The notes beneath the pieces were generated by a model. It saw only the letters and a list, made by a program, of their open reading frames with translations. It was not told where the DNA came from and searched no databases. A stretch of 64,000 bases of DNA, taken from the NCBI RefSeq assembly GCF_007845675.1, contig NZ_VOBR01000009.1:227317-291316 (forward strand). Reading direction: 5' to 3'. Shown here in pieces: positions 12,423-41,400 of this stretch. The stretch's first letter is position 1; every line of letters begins with the position of its first letter. Origin of the DNA: Lentzea tibetensis (GTDB lineage: Bacteria > Actinomycetota > Actinomycetes > Mycobacteriales > Pseudonocardiaceae). The translations under genes and the position numbers were made by a program.

Positions 12423-12902
12423 TTACGAGCGGGGAGCGTGACCGGCCTGGTCGGTCAGCATGCGCAGGCCGCTGACGAGACCACCCGCGAGGTCGCCTTC
12501 CTTGAAGGACGCGACCATGCTCATCACCGCGAGCTTGGCGCCTCGATCGGGCAGCCTGCGGTGCGACTCCTCACCGGTGACGATCTCGACGACGCGCTCA
12601 CCCGGCGACACGGCGACGAGCACCGCGTGCGCGGGCCTGGCCGTCTGCGCGTGCAGCTCCTCGGCACGCGCGCGGCTCTCCTTGCCGAGCTCGCCGAGGT
12701 ACACGCTGAAGTCGAGCCCGGTGCTGCGGCTGGACAACGTCAGCGCCTCGTCCAAAGAGGACAGCTGCGCGGGCGTGAACGGCAGCGACGGGGCGTGCGG
12801 CTCGTACATCTTGGCGACGGACAGCCTGCCGCTGTTCGTGATCGCCTCGCCGATCCCGAGCTCGCGGTCCGGGTCGACGCGCTGAATCTCACCAGTTGCC
12901 AC
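12423..12902 (-). CDS. DUF5130 family protein (TPM-like fold)
   Basis: 159 residues, soluble, no signal peptide. It contains SSRSTGLDFSVYLGELG and AVLVAVSPGERVVEIVTGEESHRRLPD, the pattern of actinobacterial DUF5130 proteins, related to the TPM/Psb32-type fold. GTG 12902 was chosen because AGGGGAGG stands five bases before it. It overlaps the end of the CtaJ-like gene by 14 bp, so they form a pair. The same pair lies beside glbO and aglA in mycobacteria (recalled, not checked), supporting a link to cytochrome oxidase assembly or the envelope. Function not established here. Confidence 0.75.
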   Translation of the reverse strand: MATGEIQRVDPDRELGIGEAITNSGRLSVAKMYEPHAPSLPFTPAQLSSLDEALTLSSRSTGLDFSVYLGELGKESRARAEELHAQTARPAHAVLVAVSPGERVVEIVTGEESHRRLPDRGAKLAVMSMVASFKEGDLAGGLVSGLRMLTDQAGHAPRS

Positions 12903-13131
12903 GGGCACCTCCCCTTGCCGTCCGTCCACCCACGACAGCAGCCTCGGCCTCGGGGGCGCGGCTCAGGCCGGCGGGGTTGGCACTCCACCACACGGGGGCG
13001 TAGCCCCACTCCTGCCCCGGCCGGTACCGGGGAATCCGGGTGGCCTTGGGCCTAATCGTCAGAAGCGTGATCACGCCGTAGATGGCCAGCGGGATCAGCG
13101 CGAAGACGAGCACGGTCTCCACGATGGTCAC
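12889..13131 (-). CDS. ctaJ: Small membrane protein, CtaJ-like (cytochrome oxidase accessory subunit)
   Basis: 80 residues. One N-terminal membrane helix (TIVETVLVFALIPLAIYGVI) is followed by a cytoplasmic stretch with PRYRPGQEWGYAPVWWSANP. That Pro/Trp-rich motif is characteristic of the small actinobacterial protein named CtaJ, a subunit associated with the bcc-aa3 respiratory supercomplex. GTG 13131 is chosen because translation from upstream codons adds an Arg-rich tail before the helix. It overlaps the downstream DUF5130 gene. The assignment rests on motif resemblance and neighbourhood. Confidence 0.7.
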   Translation of the reverse strand: MTIVETVLVFALIPLAIYGVITLLTIRPKATRIPRYRPGQEWGYAPVWWSANPAGLSRAPEAEAAVVGGRTARGGARGNW

Positions 13132-13513
13132 GGCGGTACGGTAACCGACTTCACCCGTGCGCGAGCGGCCGGGCCAGCGTGATCGCGCGTCCCGGTGCGA
13201 TGTCCGGGAGTTTCCCCACACAGGCAGCCGCGATGATGAAGCAACCGGAACTGAGGACTGCGCACGCCTGAGCCGCCGAACCTGTCGTGACGAACATCAC
13301 GTTCCACCGATTCGGACGCTACGCATCGTGTCCATACCGGCCAGTAGAGGCAGTGAGCGCTCTCGTGCGGCGCAGCGGTTACACCCGGTAGGCCTTCACC
13401 CGGACGGCGGCGAACGGGTGCCGGTTTGGGGTCTTGTCCCTGGAACAACCGGCTTCTAGCTTTTCACCTATACGGGTCTTGCGCACCCGCCCGACAGTCC
13501 TGGAGGACACATT
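13132..13513. promoter_or_regulatory. Divergent intergenic region ahead of the octapeptide-repeat gene
   Basis: About 380 bp with no convincing gene, between the CtaJ-like gene (-) and the repeat-protein gene (+). A possible promoter for the latter is TTGTCC (13434-13439), a 17-bp spacer, then TAGCTT (13457-13462). A strong ribosome site GGAGG (13502-13506) stands seven bases before ATG 13514. The promoter call is weak; the ribosome site is clear. Confidence 0.4.
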
Positions 13514-14104
13514 ATGTTCACGACGAGCCGCCCCCAGGCACGCCTCCTCACCCTTCCGAGCTACAAGGACGATTCAGTGCGTATCACGGCCAGTGACTCC
13601 GTTCGCATCACAGCGGGTGACTCCGTTCGGATCACTGCTGGCGATTCGGTCCGCATCACGGCCGGCGACTCGGTCCGCATCACCTGCGGCGACTCCGTTC
13701 GCATCACCGCGAGCGATTCGGTCAGGATCACCGCTGGCGACTCGGTTCGGATCACGATGGGCGACTCGGTGCGCATCACCATGGGCGACTCGGTCCGGAT
13801 CACCATGGACGACTCCGTGCGCATCACGGCGGGCGACTCGGTGCGCATCACCTGCGAAGACTCGGTCCGCATCACGGCTCAGGACTCGGTCCGCATCACG
13901 ATGGACGACTCGGTCCGCATCACCTGCGAAGACTCGGTCCGCATCACGGCAGAAGACTCGGTGCGCATCACGATGAACGACGACTCCGTGCGCATCACGT
14001 GCGAGGACTCGGTCCGGATCACCGCGGAGGACTCGGTTCGCATCACCATGGGCGACTCGGTGCGCATCACGGCGCGCAAGGACGAGCTGGCCCTGGCGGC
14101 CTGA
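13514..14104 (+). CDS. Octapeptide-repeat protein, 21 x DSVRIT-x-x
   Basis: 196 residues with three parts: a 19-residue leader MFTTSRPQARLLTLPSYKD, 21 tandem octapeptides of the form DSVRIT followed by (A/M/C)(G/S/D/E/Q), and the tail KDELALAA. DSVRIT is identical in all 21 copies. One copy (the 17th) has an extra Asn. Cys occurs in copies 5, 12, 15 and 18. V and I face one side and S, R, T the other, as in a beta strand, with x-x-D as the turn, so a beta-solenoid or beta-roll is likely (inference). There is no signal peptide or membrane helix. GGAGG seven bases upstream makes the start secure. No family was recognised and no modifying enzyme lies next to it. Confidence 0.85.
   Translation: MFTTSRPQARLLTLPSYKDDSVRITASDSVRITAGDSVRITAGDSVRITAGDSVRITCGDSVRITASDSVRITAGDSVRITMGDSVRITMGDSVRITMDDSVRITAGDSVRITCEDSVRITAQDSVRITMDDSVRITCEDSVRITAEDSVRITMNDDSVRITCEDSVRITAEDSVRITMGDSVRITARKDELALAA
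13571..14077 (+). repeat. 24-bp in-frame tandem repeat coding for DSVRIT octapeptides
   Basis: 21 direct copies of a 24-bp unit (one of 27 bp) without spacers. Codons vary synonymously: Ser as TCA, TCC or TCG; Val as GTG, GTT or GTC; Arg as CGT, CGC, CGG or AGG; Thr as all four ACN. The peptide does not change at six of eight positions. Confidence 0.95.
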
Positions 14105-14111
14105 CACCGGC

Positions 14112-14636
14112 TCAGGCCGCGGGCTCACCCAGGTACGGCAGCCACTGCGGGTCGGCTTCGGCCACCCCGGCGAGCAGCCGCCAGTGCGGCCCGCGCGGAG
14201 CGGCGGGTACCACGCGCAGCCTCCACCCCAGCTCGGACAGCAGCTTGTCCGCCTTGCGGTGGTTGCACTTCGCGCAGCACGCGACGCAGTTGGTCCAGGT
14301 GTGGGGCCCGCCCCTGCTGCGCGGCACGACGTGGTCGATGGTCTCGGCTCGGCCACCGCAGTACGCGCAGCGGTAGCGATCGCGGTGCATCAACCCGGCA
14401 CGGGTCAGCGGCACCCGGCCGCGATAGGGAACGCGAACGTAGGTGCTCAGCCGGATGACGGACGGCACGAGCACCTCGGACGTCGAGGAGTGCAGCACGA
14501 GACCCGCGGGATCACCGTGCACGACCTCGGCCTTTCCGCACACGACGAGGACGACCGCGCGTCGCAGTGACAGCGCGGTCAGCGGTTCGAACGTGGCGTT
14601 GAGCAGAAGTACCTTGCGTCTTCCCCAGGGGAACAT
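14112..14636 (-). CDS. HNH endonuclease family protein
   Basis: 174 residues from ATG 14636. It begins with RKVLLLNATFEPLTALSLRRAV, the usual N-terminus of actinobacterial HNH proteins, and carries CAYCGG (first zinc-binding pair), IDHVVPRSRGG (catalytic His) and NCVACCAKCNHRKADK (second pair and HNH Asn/His). It is a putative metal-dependent nuclease with no known physiological role. The start is uncertain: the frame is open upstream to 14780, but the extension is low-complexity and GGAGG lies ~20 bases before 14636. It is convergent with the repeat-protein gene. In mycobacteria the same gene sits near glbO (recalled), so it belongs to the conserved backbone. Confidence 0.8.
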   Translation of the reverse strand: MFPWGRRKVLLLNATFEPLTALSLRRAVVLVVCGKAEVVHGDPAGLVLHSSTSEVLVPSVIRLSTYVRVPYRGRVPLTRAGLMHRDRYRCAYCGGRAETIDHVVPRSRGGPHTWTNCVACCAKCNHRKADKLLSELGWRLRVVPAAPRGPHWRLLAGVAEADPQWLPYLGEPAA

Positions 14637-14932
14637 GACCGGGGTATGTCCGGCACCTCCCCCATCGCGATCCCCATCGGGCACGGCGTGCACGGATGAC
14701 TTATTTCGGCATGCGGGGATCACCGGCGCTACCTCACCCGATATGGGGGCGCCGTTGGGGGTCGGTTGTCGGTCTGGCACGCGACCACCTCCACCGGTTC
14801 AGGCATAGCAGACCACAGATCACCCTCAAAAATCACGTGTGATAAGCGACGCGTCATGGATGTGTGATCGAAACTCAGGTGAACGAGCTCCCTAAACGGG
14901 GATGGTTTTCATCGCCCGCTACCCTTGACAAG

Positions 14933-17032
14933 GTGACCGAGGCTCCCTCCACATCTCCGCCCGCGACGATCACGTACCCGCTCGCGGAGCGGCTAAACCT
15001 CATCGAGCACCTGCACGGGCGCGCGGTGGCCGATCCGTACCGCTGGCTCGAGGACGCGAACGACCAGCGGACCGAGACGTGGTCGGGCGAGCAGGACGTG
15101 CTCACGCGGTCCTGGCTGGACGCGATGCCCGGCCGCGAGCGCCTCGGCACCCGGTTGCGCGAGCTGATGCGCACCGGTTCGGTGTCCACCCCGACGTGGC
15201 GCGCGGGCCGCGCGTTCTTCACCCGGCGCGGGCCCGAGCAGGACCACCCGGTCGTCTACCTGCGCGAGCAGGACGGCACGGAGCGCGTGCTGCTGGACGT
15301 GAGCGAGCTGGACCCGTCGGGCCGCACGACGCTGGACGGGTGGTCGCCGTCGCTGGAGGGCACGCGGCTGGCGTACCAGGTCTCGGTCGGCGGCAACGAG
15401 CACTCGCTGCTGCACGTGGTCGACGTCGACAGCGGTGAGCTGATCGAGGGCCCGATCGACCGCTGCCGCTACTCCCCCATCGGCTGGCTGCCGGGCGGCG
15501 AGGAGTTCTTCTACGTGCGGCAGCTCGACCCGGCCGGTCTGCCGGAGGACGAGCAGCTGTTCCACCGCCGGGTGTGGCGGCACCGCGTCGGCGCGGACCC
15601 CGTGACGGACGTCAACGTGCACGGCGACGGCCTCGACCACACCTACTACTACGGGCTCAGCGTGTCGCAGGACGGCCGCTGGCTGGTCGTCAACGGCGCG
15701 CCCGGCACCGTGCGCCGCGACTCGGTGTGGATCGCGGACCTGCACGGCACCGGTGAGCTGAAGCCCGTCATCGACGCGGAGGCGGGCGCGCAGTGCTCGG
15801 CGTTCGTCGCGCGCGACGGGATGCTGTACGTCCACACGTCGCTGAACGCCTCGCGCTTCCGCATCTGCGTCGCGGACCCGGAGCGGCCGACGCCGGAGCA
15901 CTGGGTCGAGCTCGTCGGCGAGGAACCGGACTCGGTCCTGGACGGTCTGCGCTGGCTGAACGGCACCCTCGTGGTGCTGCGCACCAGGCACGCGGTGTCC
16001 GAACTGCACCTGCACGCGACCGACGGCGAGCACCTCGGCCAGATCCCGTTGCCCGGCACCGGGTCCGTGCACGGCATGTCCGTTGTGGACGCGGCGACCC
16101 CGCACGACCGCGACGCGCTGTGGGTCGGCTGGACGGACTTCGTCACGCCGCTGTCGGTGTACCGCTTCTCGCTGTCCTCCGGTGAGACGACGCTGGCCGA
16201 GGCCGCGCCGGGCCGCATCGAGCTGCCCGCGGTGACGACCCAGCAGATCTCCTACGCCTCGCTGGACGGCACGACCGTGCGCATGTTCGTCGTGAGCGGC
16301 GAGCAGAGGCCCGACCTGCCGCGTCCCACGCTGCTGACCGGCTACGGCGGTTTCGCGATCGGCCGCGGCCCCGGTTACAGCGCCACGACGCTGGCCTGGG
16401 TCGAAGCGGGCGGCGTGTGGGTGCACGTGTCGCTGCGCGGTGGTGACGAGGAGGGCGAGGAGTGGCACCACGCGGGCATGCGCGAGCGCAAGCAGAACGT
16501 GTTCGACGACTTCCACGCCGCCGCCGAACGCCTGGTGCGCGACGGCTGGACCACGCCGCAGCAGCTCGCGATCATGGGCGGCTCCAACGGCGGCCTGCTC
16601 GTCGGCGCGGCGCTGACGCAGCGCCCGGAGCTGTACGCGGCCGTGGTGTGTTCAGCCCCACTGCTCGACATGGTGCGCTACGAGAAGTTCCTGCTCGGAC
16701 GGTTGTGGGCGGAGGAATACGGCAGCGCAAGCGTTTCCGACGAGCTCGGCTGGCTGCTCTCCTACTCTCCGTACCATCGCGTCCGGCCCGATGTTGAGTA
16801 CCCTTCGGTCCTGTTCACGGTGTTCGAGTCGGATTCCCGCGTGGACCCCAACCACGCCCGGAAGATGTGCGCCGCGTTGCAACACGCGAGCACGAGTGAT
16901 CCGACCAAGCACCCCGTGCTCATCAGGCGCGAGACCGAGGTCGGTCACGCCGGCCGTTCGGTGAGCCGGACGGTCGCTCTCGCCGTGGACCAGCTGACGT
17001 TTCTGGCCAATGCCACGGGCATGGAGTTGTAG
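14933..17032 (+). CDS. Prolyl oligopeptidase family serine peptidase (S9A)
   Basis: 699 residues. The N-terminal signature [14 protein letters not shown] opens the family. A seven-bladed propeller covers about residues 65-410 and an alpha/beta-hydrolase domain follows. Catalytic Ser551 sits in GGSNGG, Asp in [12 protein letters not shown] and His in TEVGHAG. The enzyme cleaves short peptides after proline in the cytoplasm; no signal peptide is present. GTG 14933 is preferred. TACCCT lies seven bases upstream, suggesting a leaderless mRNA, and homologues start close to the motif above; GTG 14864 is in frame and possible. The MscS gene follows after 14 bp. Confidence 0.9.
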
Positions 17033-24267: not shown

Positions 24268-27219
24268 TCACTGTGCTTCGGCGACCTTCAAGAGATCTGA
24301 AGACAGTTCTTGAGGCCTGCCCTCGCGGGCCTCGCGGGCACCGTGCCGTTCGAAGATCGCGAGCGCTTCCGGCCACGCGTCCCGCCGCCCGAGTGCCGCC
24401 AGGTCGCGCAGGGTCCGCGCGCGCCAGACCGGCAGGGCGAGCGCCTCCCACCACTGCAGTGAACGGTCGAGGTGCTGACGCGCCCGTTCCACGTCGCCCT
24501 CGGCCAGCTCCAGCTCACCCGACGTCCGCAACACCAGTGCCTGCCCGAAGTTGTCGTCCATGTCGTTGCACGTCGCCAGGCACTCCTCCAGGTCGGCACG
24601 CACCTCGGTGCCGCGTCCCTGACGGATCCGAACCTTGGCCAGCGCCTGCACCGCGTAGGCCGACATGAGCCGGTCACCGAGACCGCGCAGCACGTCGATC
24701 GCGCGTTCGCAGTGCTCCGCCGCCTCGTCGAGCCTGCCTGCCGCGCGGTGCACGATCCCGATCGAACGCAGCGCGATGGCCTCACCCCTGCGGTCCCCGA
24801 GCCGCCGGTACGCGAGATGGGCGCGCACGCAGGCGTCGAGCCCGCCGTCGAGATCACCCTGCTCGGTCAGCACCCGGCCGAGGCCGTGCATCGCACGCGC
24901 GACCTCGCCGGGCTCGGTCAGGTCCGGCAGGGCCTGTTCGAGTGCCGCGCGGGCCTCGTCGAGCCTGCCGTGGTCCCGGTGCACGGCGCTGAGCGACAGC
25001 CGGACCGCCGCCTGGCCCTGCCGGTCGCCGCTGAGCTCGTGCGCGGCGAGTGCCTGCAGGTAGTAGACCTCCGCCTCGTCGAACCGGTCCTGCTCGTAGC
25101 GCAGACCGCCCAGCCCGGCCAGCAGCCGCGCCTCCCCCGCGTGGTCACCTGTCCGCTTCGCGGCGCCGAGTGCGGCGTTGTGGGTGCGCCACCACTGCGT
25201 GAACATGTTGCGCACCGCGAACCGCGACGAGCAGAGCGCCGCGGCGAGCCGCGTCGCCACGTCGGTGAGGTCGAGCTCGCTGATCCGTTCGACGGCCGCG
25301 ACGAGCCCCGTCTGCTCGGCCGCGAACCACTGCTCAGGGTCGGCGAGAAGTTCTTCCACGACACCGTCTTCGAGGTGCGGCACGGTCTTCGCGTGGTCGT
25401 CGCCCCACATCGCGTGCGGCATCCGGCTGCCCGCGATCCGCACCAGCGCGAGCCAGCTCCGCGACGCACGCGCGACGCACGCCCGGATGTCCCCCTCGGA
25501 CTCCTCGTCCTCACCCCGTTCCCGTGCGAACGCCCGGACGAGGTCGTGCAGCTGGTACCGAACCACGCCGCCGCACGAGGTCACGTCGACGAGCTGTGCG
25601 TCCACGAGCCGTTCGACGACGTCCTCCGCCTCGGGCACCGGGCAGTCGAGCAGCGGCGCGACGAGCCAGCCGCCGAAGCCCGACACGTCGAGCAGGGCGA
25701 GCCTGCGCAACGCCACCCGTTCCCGCCGAGGCAGGCCGTCGTAGCTGAGCGACAGACTGCCGCGCACCTCCAGGTCGCCGAGCGTCAGCTCGTGCAGGAT
25801 TCCGCGGCGCACCGCGAGCCGCTCGGCGAGCTTGCCCAACGGCCACAGCGGACGTGCCGCGAGCCGGGCGGCGATGATCCGGATCGCCAGCGGCAGGTGC
25901 CCGCACAACCGCACCACCCGCCGCGCCTGCTCGGGCTCGGCGTCGACCCGGTGACCACCCTCGACCCGGCCGAGCAGTGCGAGCGCCTCGACGTCGTTCA
26001 GCACCCCGAGGTGGAGGTGGACAGCACCACCGAGCGCGCCGAGGCGCCTGCGTCCCGTCACGAGCACCGCGCACCGGCGCCCGCCTGGCAGCAGTGGCCG
26101 GATCTGCTCCTCGCACCCGGCGTCGTCCAGCACGACGAGCACCCTCCGGTCCGCGAGCAACGTGCGGTAGAGCTGTGCGCGTTCCTCCAGCTCCGCCGGG
26201 ACCGCCGCGTCGGCGACGCCGAGCGCGCGCAGGAACCCGGCGAGCACCTCGGCCGGATCGGCGCGGGTCTGGTGCACCCCGCGCAGTGCGGCGAACAGCT
26301 GTCCCTCGGGGAAGTGGTCGCGCACCTCGTGCGCGACGTGCGTGGCGAGGCTCGACTTGCCGACACCCGGCTTGCCGGAGATCACGCACAGCCGGGCGCC
26401 GTCGCGGAGCTGGCGTTCGAGCGCACTCGCCTCGGCTGTGCGACCGGTGAAGTCGTCGATGTCGAACGGGAGCTGGTTCGGCTGTTCCGGGAGCCTGTGC
26501 GGTGCCTCGGCCGGATCGCGCAGCACCTGCTGGTGCGCGGCACTCAGCTCGGGCCCCGGTTCCACACCGAGTTCCCCGAGCAACGCCGCGCGGCCCTCCT
26601 GGTAGCAGGCGAGTGCGTCCGCCTGCCGCCCCGCCTGGTGCAGCGCGCGCATGAGCTGGGCCCGCACCCGTTCCCGGAACGGGTGCTCCGCGACCGTCGC
26701 GGTCAGCTCGGCGACCACGAGCTCGCCCTTGCCCGCCGCGAGGTGCGCCGCGCCGCAGTCCTGCAGAGCGAGGAGCCGGAGCTCCTCCAGCCTCGCCCGT
26801 TCCCCCTCGGCCCACTCCCCTTGCGTGCCACCGAGAGGCCCACCCCGCCACAGCGCGAGCGCGGCCCCGAACCGCCGGATCGCCTCCTCGGGCGGCAGCT
26901 CCCGCGCCTCCTCGGTGGATCTGGTGAACGCGTGGAGATCGACCTGCTCCGGATCGACCTCCAGCACGTACCCGGCGGGATGCCGGACGATCACGTCGCC
27001 GAGTGCGCGCCGCAACGTCGAGACGTAGGTGTACACGGCCGCCCGCGTCTGCTCCGGCGGACGCTCACCCCAGATCGCGTCCACCACCTGGTCCTGCGAG
27101 ACGACGCGCCCCGCGTGCACCGCCAGCAACGCGACCAGCGTGCGCGGCTTGGGCCCGCCGAGCGGCACGGGTCTGCCGCCCGCTTCGACCTCCACCGGTC
27201 CCAGCACGTGAAAACGCAT
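24268..27219 (-). CDS. AfsR/SARP-family transcriptional regulator with NB-ARC and TPR domains
   Basis: 983 residues. A winged-helix DNA-binding domain (1-95, starting MRFHVLGPVEVEAGGRPVPLG) and BTAD (96-245) are followed by an NB-ARC STAND ATPase (about 265-530, P-loop ISGKPGVGKSSLATH, LVVLDDAG Walker B, GLPRRERVALRRLALL helical part) and a C-terminal TPR array (about 680-960). ATG 27219 has GGGGGAG directly upstream. Such proteins switch on secondary metabolism or secreted enzymes after ligand or phosphorylation cues. The likely targets here are the adjacent secreted hydrolase genes; no biosynthetic cluster is next to it. Confidence 0.93.
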   Translation of the reverse strand: MRFHVLGPVEVEAGGRPVPLGGPKPRTLVALLAVHAGRVVSQDQVVDAIWGERPPEQTRAAVYTYVSTLRRALGDVIVRHPAGYVLEVDPEQVDLHAFTRSTEEARELPPEEAIRRFGAALALWRGGPLGGTQGEWAEGERARLEELRLLALQDCGAAHLAAGKGELVVAELTATVAEHPFRERVRAQLMRALHQAGRQADALACYQEGRAALLGELGVEPGPELSAAHQQVLRDPAEAPHRLPEQPNQLPFDIDDFTGRTAEASALERQLRDGARLCVISGKPGVGKSSLATHVAHEVRDHFPEGQLFAALRGVHQTRADPAEVLAGFLRALGVADAAVPAELEERAQLYRTLLADRRVLVVLDDAGCEEQIRPLLPGGRRCAVLVTGRRRLGALGGAVHLHLGVLNDVEALALLGRVEGGHRVDAEPEQARRVVRLCGHLPLAIRIIAARLAARPLWPLGKLAERLAVRRGILHELTLGDLEVRGSLSLSYDGLPRRERVALRRLALLDVSGFGGWLVAPLLDCPVPEAEDVVERLVDAQLVDVTSCGGVVRYQLHDLVRAFARERGEDEESEGDIRACVARASRSWLALVRIAGSRMPHAMWGDDHAKTVPHLEDGVVEELLADPEQWFAAEQTGLVAAVERISELDLTDVATRLAAALCSSRFAVRNMFTQWWRTHNAALGAAKRTGDHAGEARLLAGLGGLRYEQDRFDEAEVYYLQALAAHELSGDRQGQAAVRLSLSAVHRDHGRLDEARAALEQALPDLTEPGEVARAMHGLGRVLTEQGDLDGGLDACVRAHLAYRRLGDRRGEAIALRSIGIVHRAAGRLDEAAEHCERAIDVLRGLGDRLMSAYAVQALAKVRIRQGRGTEVRADLEECLATCNDMDDNFGQALVLRTSGELELAEGDVERARQHLDRSLQWWEALALPVWRARTLRDLAALGRRDAWPEALAIFERHGAREAREGRPQELSSDLLKVAEAQ

Positions 27220-27319
27220 GTCTCCCCCAGAGATGAACAGAGCAACGTCCGCGGCTCGGTTCCCCGACAGGGAGAACCGCACCGCGGACGCGTGCTTCAA
27301 CCGTTCTGAGAACCCGGCG

Positions 27320-38427: not shown

Positions 38428-41400
38428 TCACGAGCCGGGCAGTGTCCATCCACCGAACGGGGACTCCTCGACACGCCGGATGGGGCCCGTTGTCTCGGTG
38501 TCCGGAATCGCTGGTTCGACCGGATTCGCGGCGGGCCGGTCGGTGGGCAGCTCGGCCGGCCGGTCGGCGCGCTGGTCGAAGCGCTGGTCGACGGGCAGCT
38601 CGGCGGGCTGGTCGGTCGGCTGTCCCACCGGTGTGATCGGGCCCGTCGACTCCGGGTCCCGCTCCTCTTGCTCTTCGTCCCTCTTGCCCGTCTCGTAGGC
38701 CACCAGTGCCTCGGCCAGCAGTTCGGCGAGGCCCATGTCGCTCGACCTGCGTCGTGAGCTGGGCAGGCTGGGGTCCTTCGCCACCGCTTCGGCCGGGGCG
38801 GGCTGGGGCGCGCCGGGACTCGTGACGGGCTGGCCGGGTGTGCCCTGTGCGGTGTCCGGGGTGTTGTGCCCGCTCTGGGGTGCGCTGAGCAGGAAAGGCG
38901 TGGGCTGAGCTGGGTCCGGCGTCTGCGCGCCATGGCCCGCGTCGAACTGGGCGGGCGTCGTTGGGGCCGGCTGCGCCTGGCTCGTGCCGAACTGGGGCTG
39001 GGCGGCCGGGTCGTACTGAGGCTGCGTGGTCTGGCCGAAGGTGGGCTGACCCTCCGGGCCCTGACCGAAGGTCGGCTCTGGCTGCGCGGCCTGACCAAAG
39101 GGTGGCTGAGCCTCTGCGGCCTGACCAAAGGTCGGCTGACCTTGCGGGGCCTGACCGAAAGCGGGCGGAGCCTCGGCGGCTTGACCGAAGGTCGACTGCC
39201 CCTGCACACCCTGACCGAACGTGGGCTGGGCCTCTGCGGCCTGACCAAAGGTCGGCTCCGGCTGCGCGGCCTGACCGAAGGTCGGATGACTCTGCACGCC
39301 CTGACCGAACGTGGACTGACCCTGCACACCCTGACCGAACGTGGGCTGAGCCTGCACACCCTGACCGAAGGTCGGCTCAGGCTGTTCGGCCTCGCCGAAG
39401 GTCGGCTGAGCCAGCGTGGGCTGCCCGAAAGTGGGCTGAGCCTCTGCGGGCTGACCGAAGGTTGGCTGAGCCTGCGCGGCCTGGGCCGAGTAGGGCTGCC
39501 CGAACTGGCCTGGGGTCTGTCCGGCCTGGGCCGCGTCCGGCAGCTGAGCCGGTCCCGGCTGCCCCGGATCCGACCGGGTCGGCGAGGTCAGGCCGAACGA
39601 GGCACCGCTCTGGTACTGCCCCGGCTGCGGCGACTGTCCTGGCTGAGCCAGATCCGGCCGCGCCTGCTCGGGCTGAAACGCATCCGGTCGTGCCTGTGCC
39701 GCCTGGGCTCCGGGCGGCGCCGACACCTGCCACGGCTGCTGAGGCTGGTCTACTCCGGGCTGGGCGTATCCCGACTGGGCATAACCCAGCTCGGTGTATC
39801 CCAGCTGGTCCCCTCCCGGCTGCGAGTACGCCGACTCCGGTGTCCCGAAGCCACTGGACGCCGAGGAGGCAGAGGCTTCTGGCTGCGCGACCTGCACCCA
39901 GTCCGACTGGGGCGTGTCCGAGTCGCGGCCGAAGGGCTGCCAGGTGGCCGGGGGCTCGTCCTCGATGTCCGCGGAGCTCAGGAACGAGCTCGACAGCAGG
40001 TCGGGCTCCGGAGGCGTCGGGACCTCGTCCGGGACCGGCACCGACGGCACCGGGTCCGGCACGGGCGGCTGCTCGGGTGCGGGTGGCTCCGGGACCGGCT
40101 CCGGCACCGGGCGCTTGACGGGCTCGGGTTCTGGTTCGGTCTCGCGTTCCGGCTGCGGGGCGGGGATGCGGCTCGCAGGCTCGCCGAATGCCGATTCCTG
40201 CTCGCCCGGCTGACGACCGAACGCCGCCGCCAACCCGGACGAACGACGACCGGCACGCCCCACCGGCGGTGCCTCGAACCCACTGGGCTGCTCGTCGGAA
40301 GGTGCCTCGAACGCCAACGCCTCGAAACGCGCCCGCGTGCCGAACGGATCCGAGCCCGGAGCCTCGAAGCTCGGCACGTCAGAAGCCGGCGCCTCGAACT
40401 CCGAACCGCCGGCGGACGAGTCCGTCGATGGTCGGCCGAAGTCGGCGCCGGGCCAGCCGGAACGCGGGTCCTCCGACGCACGGCCGAAGCCGACACTCGG
40501 GCCATCGGCACGCGGATCGTCCGACGCACGACTGAAGCCAACACCCGACCCATCGGAACGCGACTCGTCCGACGCACGGCCGAAGCCGACACTCGGGCCG
40601 TCGGAACGTGAGTCCTCCGACGCACCACCGAAATCAAAGCCCGACCCATCAGAACGCGAGTCCTCCGACACGCGACCGAAGTCGACGCCCGGCCCGGCGG
40701 AACGATTTTCCTCTGCTCGGCGGCCGAAGTCGGGCACCTGTGCGTCTGGATTCAGGCTCGCTTGCTCGCGGCCGAAGTCGAAGCTCGAGCCGGGGCCCTG
40801 TGCGTCGGGGCTCGGGTCCGGCCGCGCGCGCCCGAAGTCGTAGCCCTGTTCGTCAGGGGTCGTGCTCGGTTGCGGCGGTCCGAAGTCGGGCGTCGGCCCG
40901 GCGGTGCGCGAATCCTCTGTGTCAGGCGTTCGACCGAAGTCGAAGGCCGGGGTGTCCGACCGGGCTCCCGAGTCGCTCTGGCCGAAAGCGGCGCCCAGGC
41001 CAGAGAAACCCGACGGCGACCCGAAGGTCGGAGTGTCGGCGGGTGACGCGTCGGAGTCGTCGGACGGCCCGTGCGCGAACGCCGCTGCCAGGCCGGACGG
41101 GCGGGCCGAGGCGGGTGGGTCGATGTGCGGCTCGGCCGGTTCCTGGCCGTAGGGCGTCGTGTAGGACGAGCGCGGCGGGCGGGACGGCAGGCCGTCCGGG
41201 CCCACCACCGGCTGGACGGCCGTCGTCGGCTCGAAGTAGTTGTGCGGCAACGGGTCCGGGGTCAGCGGGTCCGGGGTCGCCGGCTCGTCGGGTTCAGCGG
41301 AGCGGAGGTGGGCGGGGGCCTCGACGCGCCACTGCTGGGGCTCAGCGGAGTCCTCGTCGGGTTCTTTCGCGCGGCGTCTGCCGCCCTGGCGCAGGCCGGC

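Follow-up and report, generated by a model that had tools for sequence, protein, structure and literature searches.

What kind of protein is built almost entirely of one short peptide, repeated letter for letter, and what keeps the letters in place? The question is raised by a gene of Lentzea tibetensis, of the Pseudonocardiaceae, a family known as makers of clinically used antibiotics. The gene lies in the window, by which we mean the whole stretch of 64,000 nucleotides that was analysed (Table 1). A first-pass annotation had described it as carrying 21 invariant DSVRIT copies in a 24-bp in-frame tandem, and exactly 21 were counted here; Tandem Repeats Finder reports 20.4 copies of a 24-bp unit (score 389), and a score of 429 when the unit is taken as 72 bp. 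A degenerate codon pattern for DSVRIT matches 21 times in the 9.36 Mb genome: 20 matches fall within the repeat gene, where the 21st copy is missed because of an AGG codon, and one lies elsewhere, close to the end of another frame. The reversed pattern, used as a control, gave no match in the same 9.36 Mb.

Table 1. Features of the repeat gene, its upstream region and its neighbours, in window coordinates.
Feature	Coordinates	Strand	Basis and remarks
Repeat gene, 196 aa, 21 SVRIT cores	13514..14104	+	ATG start; sequence and core parsing
N-terminal leader MFTTSRPQARLLTLPSYKD	13514..13570	+	Sequence
21-unit DSVRIT array	13571..14071	+	Sequence; Tandem Repeats Finder
C-terminal tail ARKDELALAA	14072..14101	+	Sequence; resembles the end of the tmRNA tag
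Ribosome binding site GGAGGA	13502..13507	+	Sequence
-35-like TTGTCC	13434..13439	+	Sequence and spacing; overlaps conserved box TTTGGGGTCTTGT (13425-13437)
-10-like TAGCTT	13457..13462	+	Sequence and spacing; 17 bases after the -35
Family-wide element TTTTCACCTATACGGGTCTTGC	13461..13482	+	Overlaps the end of the -10; single copy in the genome
HNH endonuclease gene, convergent neighbour	14112..14780	-	Pfam; locus marker in other genomes
CtaJ-like aa3 oxidase subunit gene, upstream	12889..13221	-	NF050118, 95.2 bits, cut-off 43
DUF5130/TPM-domain gene, upstream	12423..12929	-	Pfam

Within the window array, 19 of the 20 linkers between cores have three residues and one has four, giving a spacing of eight with a single nine. 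The residue following T is A in 11 units, M in six and C in four, as had been claimed for position 7 of the repeat; for position 8 the annotation had listed G, S, D, E and Q, which holds for 19 of the 21 copies (G 9, E 5, S 2, D 2, Q 1), the remaining two having N and R. The four Cys residues that it had reported are the total found in the protein. Core codons are of three kinds each for Ser and Val and four each for Arg and Thr, and Ile is written as ATC alone. Over the five core codons, the difference between copies is pS 0.47 vs pN 0.007, and the latter is above zero despite 21 of 21 identical peptides because paths run between CGN and AGG. From the high pS and tiny pN we conclude that the array is old and its peptide strongly selected, so that the earlier argument from varied codons and a fixed peptide was borne out once copies were compared with one another.

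The octapeptide was less fortunate as a proposed unit. DSVRIT octamers turn out to be the version of Lentzea and its near relatives, whereas the unit shared by the family has five residues and linkers of free length, [GS]-[VTI]-R-[VI]-[TSNHE], found in 11 versions among 100 parsed members. This set comprises L001-L044, L065-L067, L176 and those 52 of the 60 syntenic loci where two or more cores were found; it contains a surplus of Lentzea, and L065-L067 are possibly duplicates of genomes already counted. (One of these, L067, is in a record titled Nocardia sp. NRRL S-836, clusters with Lentzea on the HNH tree and has a Lentzea-type array; the name looks wrong.) The annotation had named homologues without a conserved DSVRIT as a finding that would speak against its reading. 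Taken literally, such homologues are what we found, but the architecture is conserved across them. The commonest core is SVRIT in 35 proteins, GTRVT in 29 and GVRIS in 21, followed by GTRIT, GVRIH and GVRVT (three proteins each), GIRVN (two), and GVRVN, GIRVT, GVRIN and GVRIE (one each). R is the sole residue common to all 11 versions; the regular expression for the core was set after the variants had been seen and requires R, so other core forms are under-counted, and loci without a match to it were read by a free motif count.

Within each protein the core is nearly uniform. Of 1652 cores in the 100 members, 1645 match the commonest core of their own protein, and 93 proteins have a single core version. 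With one mismatch allowed, proteins with at least five cores hold 1634 exact and 34 one-off copies, R being replaced in five of the latter. The median between-copy values, for 97 proteins with at least five cores, are pS 0.49 and pN 0.02, so most arrays owe their uniformity to selection and not to recent copying of units. Concerted re-amplification can explain the uniformity of younger arrays, such as L126 and L127 with a pS of 0.26.

A protein has 2 to 51 copies of the core. Linkers are between 1 and 35 residues long (391 of one residue, 49 of two, 556 of three, 416 of four, the remainder longer). Linkers are exclusively of one residue in 16 of 100 members, mostly old arrays, and members with mixed linkers show a rhythm in linker length at p<0.05 in 0 of 39 cases at lag 2 and 1 of 39 at lag 3. 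The post-core residue is mainly A, R, G, M, S, C or N, and six of the 100 proteins end directly after a core. Net charge ranges from -11 to +65, the window protein having -6. The smallest members have four cores in 31 aa (L142), three in 49 aa (L125) and two in 93 aa (L137); L142, of genus code g40, consists of a 7-residue leader and four GVRIN copies, and its copy of the upstream element is partial and displaced. A leader motif, phi-[TS]-[RHL]-[SP], occurs in 35 of 79 leaders where shuffling predicts 5.0, a count that is not one of independent cases because the leaders are related. Start codons at the syntenic loci were picked by ribosome site, with closeness to a 25-residue leader as tie-breaker; the 30 of 79 leaders of exactly 25 residues are therefore no evidence of a preferred length.

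The gene is present in 25 of 25 Lentzea genomes by protein search, and the window protein finds matches, part of them weak, in 53 of 150 Pseudonocardiaceae genomes. The HNH neighbour was found in 148 of these 150. We used it as a locus marker in 60 of the 148, mainly genomes with no or a weak SVRIT match and one to three per genus code, and at 52 of the 60 syntenic loci an array of at least two cores stands convergent with the HNH gene. In total, 39 of 46 Pseudonocardiaceae genus codes are represented among the 100 parsed members; no gene was found in codes g3, g4, g5, g28, g36, g37 and g42, each sampled by one or two genomes. The array is absent at eight of the 60 loci (L117, L118, L132, L138, L139, L144, L150 and L161), and the gene is therefore dispensable in some lineages. 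In 12 genomes that lack the gene at this position, a GVRIS query gave only weak matches (best E 0.0003), and the five loci of these matches have at most one core-like word each.

The HNH loci of 20 genomes from other families have no such array within 4 kb, and phylum- and class-level searches outside the Pseudonocardiaceae returned weak matches. We read 36 best-match loci as candidate members: 33 have at most three core-like words each, two are the window locus itself and one (G068) is a true Pseudonocardiaceae member. Judged by their sequences, the matches elsewhere among the loci read are chance matches. Matches by tblastn to phage (10 records) and plasmids (13 records) were also set aside, the three of 23 that were read being other tandem repeats with no cores.

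Around the window gene, the CtaJ-like gene overlaps the start of the DUF5130 gene, and both adjoin the repeat gene; a two-component-like pair is also among the neighbours. Just past the HNH gene lies an S9 peptidase of the prolyl-oligopeptidase family (14864-17032, + strand). Of the ORFs scanned at 0.1-30.6 kb, a single one was recognised as having TPRs: a large BTAD/NB-ARC/TPR protein at 24268-27282 (- strand), 10 kb off, which we take to be AfsR/SARP-like.

Core versions are swapped between lineages as wholes. When the 11 versions and 'none' are mapped as 12 states onto a tree of HNH proteins from 107 loci, 16 changes are required, whereas the mean after shuffling is 61.3, and changes at core positions 1 to 5 number 2, 6, 0, 6 and 5; these figures are rough because 50 of the 103 inner branches of this quick tree are weak. 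Within one genus code, two genomes have GVRVT and GTRVT (L126, L159), with every copy switched. The younger array of L126 (pS 0.26) fits a renewal of the array out of one changed unit, and older arrays would then retain their core letters through selection.

The gene also appears to have a promoter of its own. TTGTCC and TAGCTT are candidate -35 and -10 hexamers of a promoter for the repeat gene with a putative start site, and the family-wide element was matched by regular expression in 73 of 78 upstream regions (Lentzea thinned). It lies 70-77 bases before the ATG, 53-54 in Lentzea and 127 in L142, where it is partial; of the five negative regions, L124, L135, L153 and L170 have a near copy by eye and L127 has none. 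The element, also written as the pattern TTTCACCT[AG]TACGG, is confined to the family in its form TTTCACCTNTNNGGNNCTTG: among 377 genomes of the order scanned, 61 of the 74 Pseudonocardiaceae have this pattern, each at a single site, whereas none of the 303 genomes outside the family has it, and the reversed-pattern control gave one match in one genome. Of the 61 sites, 30 were fetched and all 30 lead to a repeat array, with the first core 127-201 bases on. For the longer element, the window genome has no second site with two or fewer mismatches. Alignment folding of 47 thinned leaders gave no RNA fold for the leader transcript, and matches to RNA families at 12900-14200 were far below gathering scores at best.

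At the other end of the gene, the window protein ends ELALAA, like the genome's own tmRNA tag, ATSNDQRTAYALAA. Other members end EYALAA, DFALAA, DFSLAA or RYALAG, and altogether 46 of 100 have a C-terminal LAA (43) or LAG (3); by genus code, the LA[AG] end is present in 13 of 39 and absent in 26. Among 366 other ORFs of the window genome, none ends LAA and one ends LAG. In Streptomyces, sigma-AntA is a ClpXP substrate by virtue of its C-terminal Ala-Ala, according to the cited part of PMC7142297. The likeness lies in an actinobacterial protein that ends in Ala-Ala and is degraded by ClpXP, set beside a window protein ending ALAA; the repeat protein is otherwise unrelated. By this analogy, the repeat protein would be degraded by ClpXP via its LAA end.

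What, then, does the protein do? Near invariance within each protein, free linkers, tiny members and wholesale switching together fit a short linear motif that one specific partner recognises. The reading that we favour, with a probability of roughly 0.55, is that the repeat protein is a cytosolic and probably short-lived carrier of many copies of a peptide ligand, acting either as an intact decoy or as the source of a cut-out signal, together with a putative partner that co-evolves with it. The pentapeptide core, SVRIT in the window protein, would be the functional unit, and leader and linkers would mainly hold the copies. A dedicated partner protein, as yet putative, would recognise the core as an extended peptide, and the two would drift jointly, giving rise to lineage-own versions. 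Dose would be set by copy number and by a dedicated sigma-70-type promoter, and also, in part of the genera, by an ssrA-like tail that would hand the protein to ClpXP. Either the intact chain may titrate the partner, as a decoy or docking array, or peptides cut free by proteolysis may act as a signal. We lean slightly to the latter, because one-residue linkers give neighbouring copies little room for joint occupancy. Several observations weigh against the ligand reading. The 16 of 100 members with exclusively one-residue linkers suggest a spacing constraint, which the free-linker model does not predict, and some members show a three-unit rhythm after the core. There are also the matches to profiles of beta-solenoid type, the missing LA[AG] end in 26 of 39 genus codes, the younger arrays explicable by re-amplification and the eight syntenic loci without the gene.

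The nearest known analogy is offered by the Phr propeptides of the Bacillota. Phr, RRNPP and RRNPPA systems likewise have short precursors and penta- or hexapeptide ligands, several with Arg, and tandem copies are optional in them; the cited parts of PMC10569065 and PMC11343458 give Phr peptides such as ERGMT, ARNQT and DRAAT, and up to 8 copies of a single pheromone in one precursor, respectively. In having many copies of a short peptide (2 to 51) the repeat family resembles them. It differs in belonging to another phylum and in reaching up to 51 copies. RRNPP systems are defined, in the cited section of PMC10075063, by an adjacent receptor and an exported propeptide. No Phr-type TPR receptor was recognised next to the repeat gene. 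A crude hydropathy test (an 11-residue mean above 1.6 anywhere in the first 45 residues) gave a hydrophobic, export-like N-terminus in five of 100 members, and the window protein is not one of these five. The 95 members without such a stretch argue against Sec export, and by the same crude test the adhesive or surface role that the first-pass annotation had offered is unlikely.

A bolder form of the favoured reading, to which we give clearly less credence, would be a peptide signalling system of new design throughout the Pseudonocardiaceae: each genome would have one cytosolic, ClpXP-labile precursor with up to about 50 copies of the same pentapeptide, in which the core acts as a lineage-specific 'pherotype' for a putative co-evolving receptor, and this receptor might also act at the upstream element. 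Signals of Actinobacteria are typically small molecules made by enzymes, oligopeptides being those of Firmicutes, as stated in the cited section of PMC10075063, and a peptide signal would be atypical there. If the core is a ligand, it would provide a five-residue bait with natural specificity variants for finding the receptor.

Alternatively, the repeat may be a fold. In this tentative reading, which we rank below the ligand carrier, the protein would be a regular beta-solenoid or fibre in which each core forms a short strand, with V and I pointing in and R and T/S out, and the linkers form the turns; the stacked protein would be a scaffold or surface inside the cell. The annotation had proposed a beta-solenoid or beta-roll with V/I inside and R/T on one face. 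Against Pfam, the best match of the window protein is PF10106 (DUF2345), with 64 bits and a cut-off of 30.7, and the 8-residue spacing and alternating V/I do resemble the gp5-type beta-helix of VgrG/DUF2345 proteins. However, the DUF2345 cut-off was passed by none of five members with other cores (best 28.7), and no VgrG domains or secretion genes were recognised in the 22 of 23 neighbouring ORFs that were scanned. At least eight Pfam cut-offs are passed among the 25 of 48 families listed, including DUF2345, cupins, a PUA domain and a sugar isomerase; the seven besides DUF2345 are of varied fold, as expected from repeat bias, and Hexapep is not among these 25. The window protein passes no NCBIfam cut-off (the VgrG model gives 34.9 bits, cut-off 100), and no PADLOC model matches it. 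It does match 14 PHROGs at E 0.001, phage baseplate hub models among them, the best being a family of unknown function at 43.7 bits. In the PDB, a sequence search gave a best E of 0.0002; VgrG chains come next, with E values between 0.02 and 0.1.

Of the five other-core members, one, with GVRIH, passes Hexapep (PF00132) with 31 bits and a cut-off of 27, and most GTRVT members have the 6-residue spacing of the left-handed beta-helix of that family. The repeat proteins differ from Hexapep proteins in lacking a recognised enzyme domain, in their strictly invariant letters and in many other or mixed spacings. At E 0.01 nothing in Pfam matches the GTRVT member with strict 6-residue spacing. GTRVT matches hexapeptide-helix enzymes and collagen-like adhesins weakly, in every case below cut-off.

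For the solenoid, then, speak the DUF2345, Hexapep and VgrG matches, which track the repeat spacing, and the exclusively one-residue linkers of some members, which fit a hexapeptide helix, as does a three-unit rhythm in the post-core residue (12 of 94 members at p<0.05, about five expected). Against it stand members with two to four cores, down to 31 aa; linkers of 1-35 residues, with no two- or three-unit rhythm in the 39 mixed-linker members; and letter-for-letter invariance, V and I being almost never swapped inside one protein. At E 0.01, two of the five other-core members match nothing in Pfam, as repeat bias predicts. If the fold reading holds, the family would offer a protein whose strand sequence is swapped whole between genera.

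Another way of reading a leader followed by identical peptides is as the precursor of a ribosomally synthesised and modified peptide (RiPP), a multi-core form of which the annotation had raised. A modifying enzyme directed by the leader would then alter each core, perhaps at Arg, and the altered peptides would be the product. We consider this unlikely. Multi-core precursors are known, and in the cited part of PMC5934393 those of the microviridin type combine a leader and repeated cores in one polypeptide; the shared leader motif, the many identical cores and a short C-terminal follower are in keeping with such a design. However, the repeat gene has no recognised modifying enzyme nearby: none was found among the 22 ORFs scanned of the 23 that lie 0.1-30.6 kb away, although one could be hidden among the eight of these 22 without a Pfam match at the limits applied. 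The core contains no Cys, aromatic residue or Lys, the locus neighbours are CtaJ, DUF5130 and HNH, and the leader of the GVRIN member has only 7 residues.

A nucleic-acid or polyanion binder that works through an arginine ladder is less likely still. The R common to all versions and a net charge of up to +65 in some members would suit it, but a range that extends down to -11, with -6 for the window protein, argues against a general affinity for nucleic acids. A selfish or neutral coding satellite, maintained by replication slippage and encoding a functionless peptide, might account for copy numbers between 2 and 51, but it scarcely merits belief, as it is already contradicted by large silent and almost nil coding differences between copies, unless the codon counts are wrong, and the gene has a fixed locus and a dedicated upstream element across many genera.

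None of the known kinds of system compared above accommodates the family, whose function is putative. The annotation knew of no named family with this motif, and this stands: no library yields a consistent name, and in the literature searched there was no paper that uses the core motifs in a relevant sense and none on such proteins. As far as literature and sequence libraries were searched, the family is undescribed. Across most Pseudonocardiaceae genera the gene has a fixed place and an upstream element to itself, yet these libraries give it no name.

The repeat gene is not the sole tandem array of the window. A second one, at 39016-39483, has a 30-bp unit in 15.6 copies with 72% matches and is probably a low-complexity protein region. 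More arrays lie near it, at 40433-40704 (48-bp unit, 5.6 copies) and at 38529-38620 (12/24/36-bp units).
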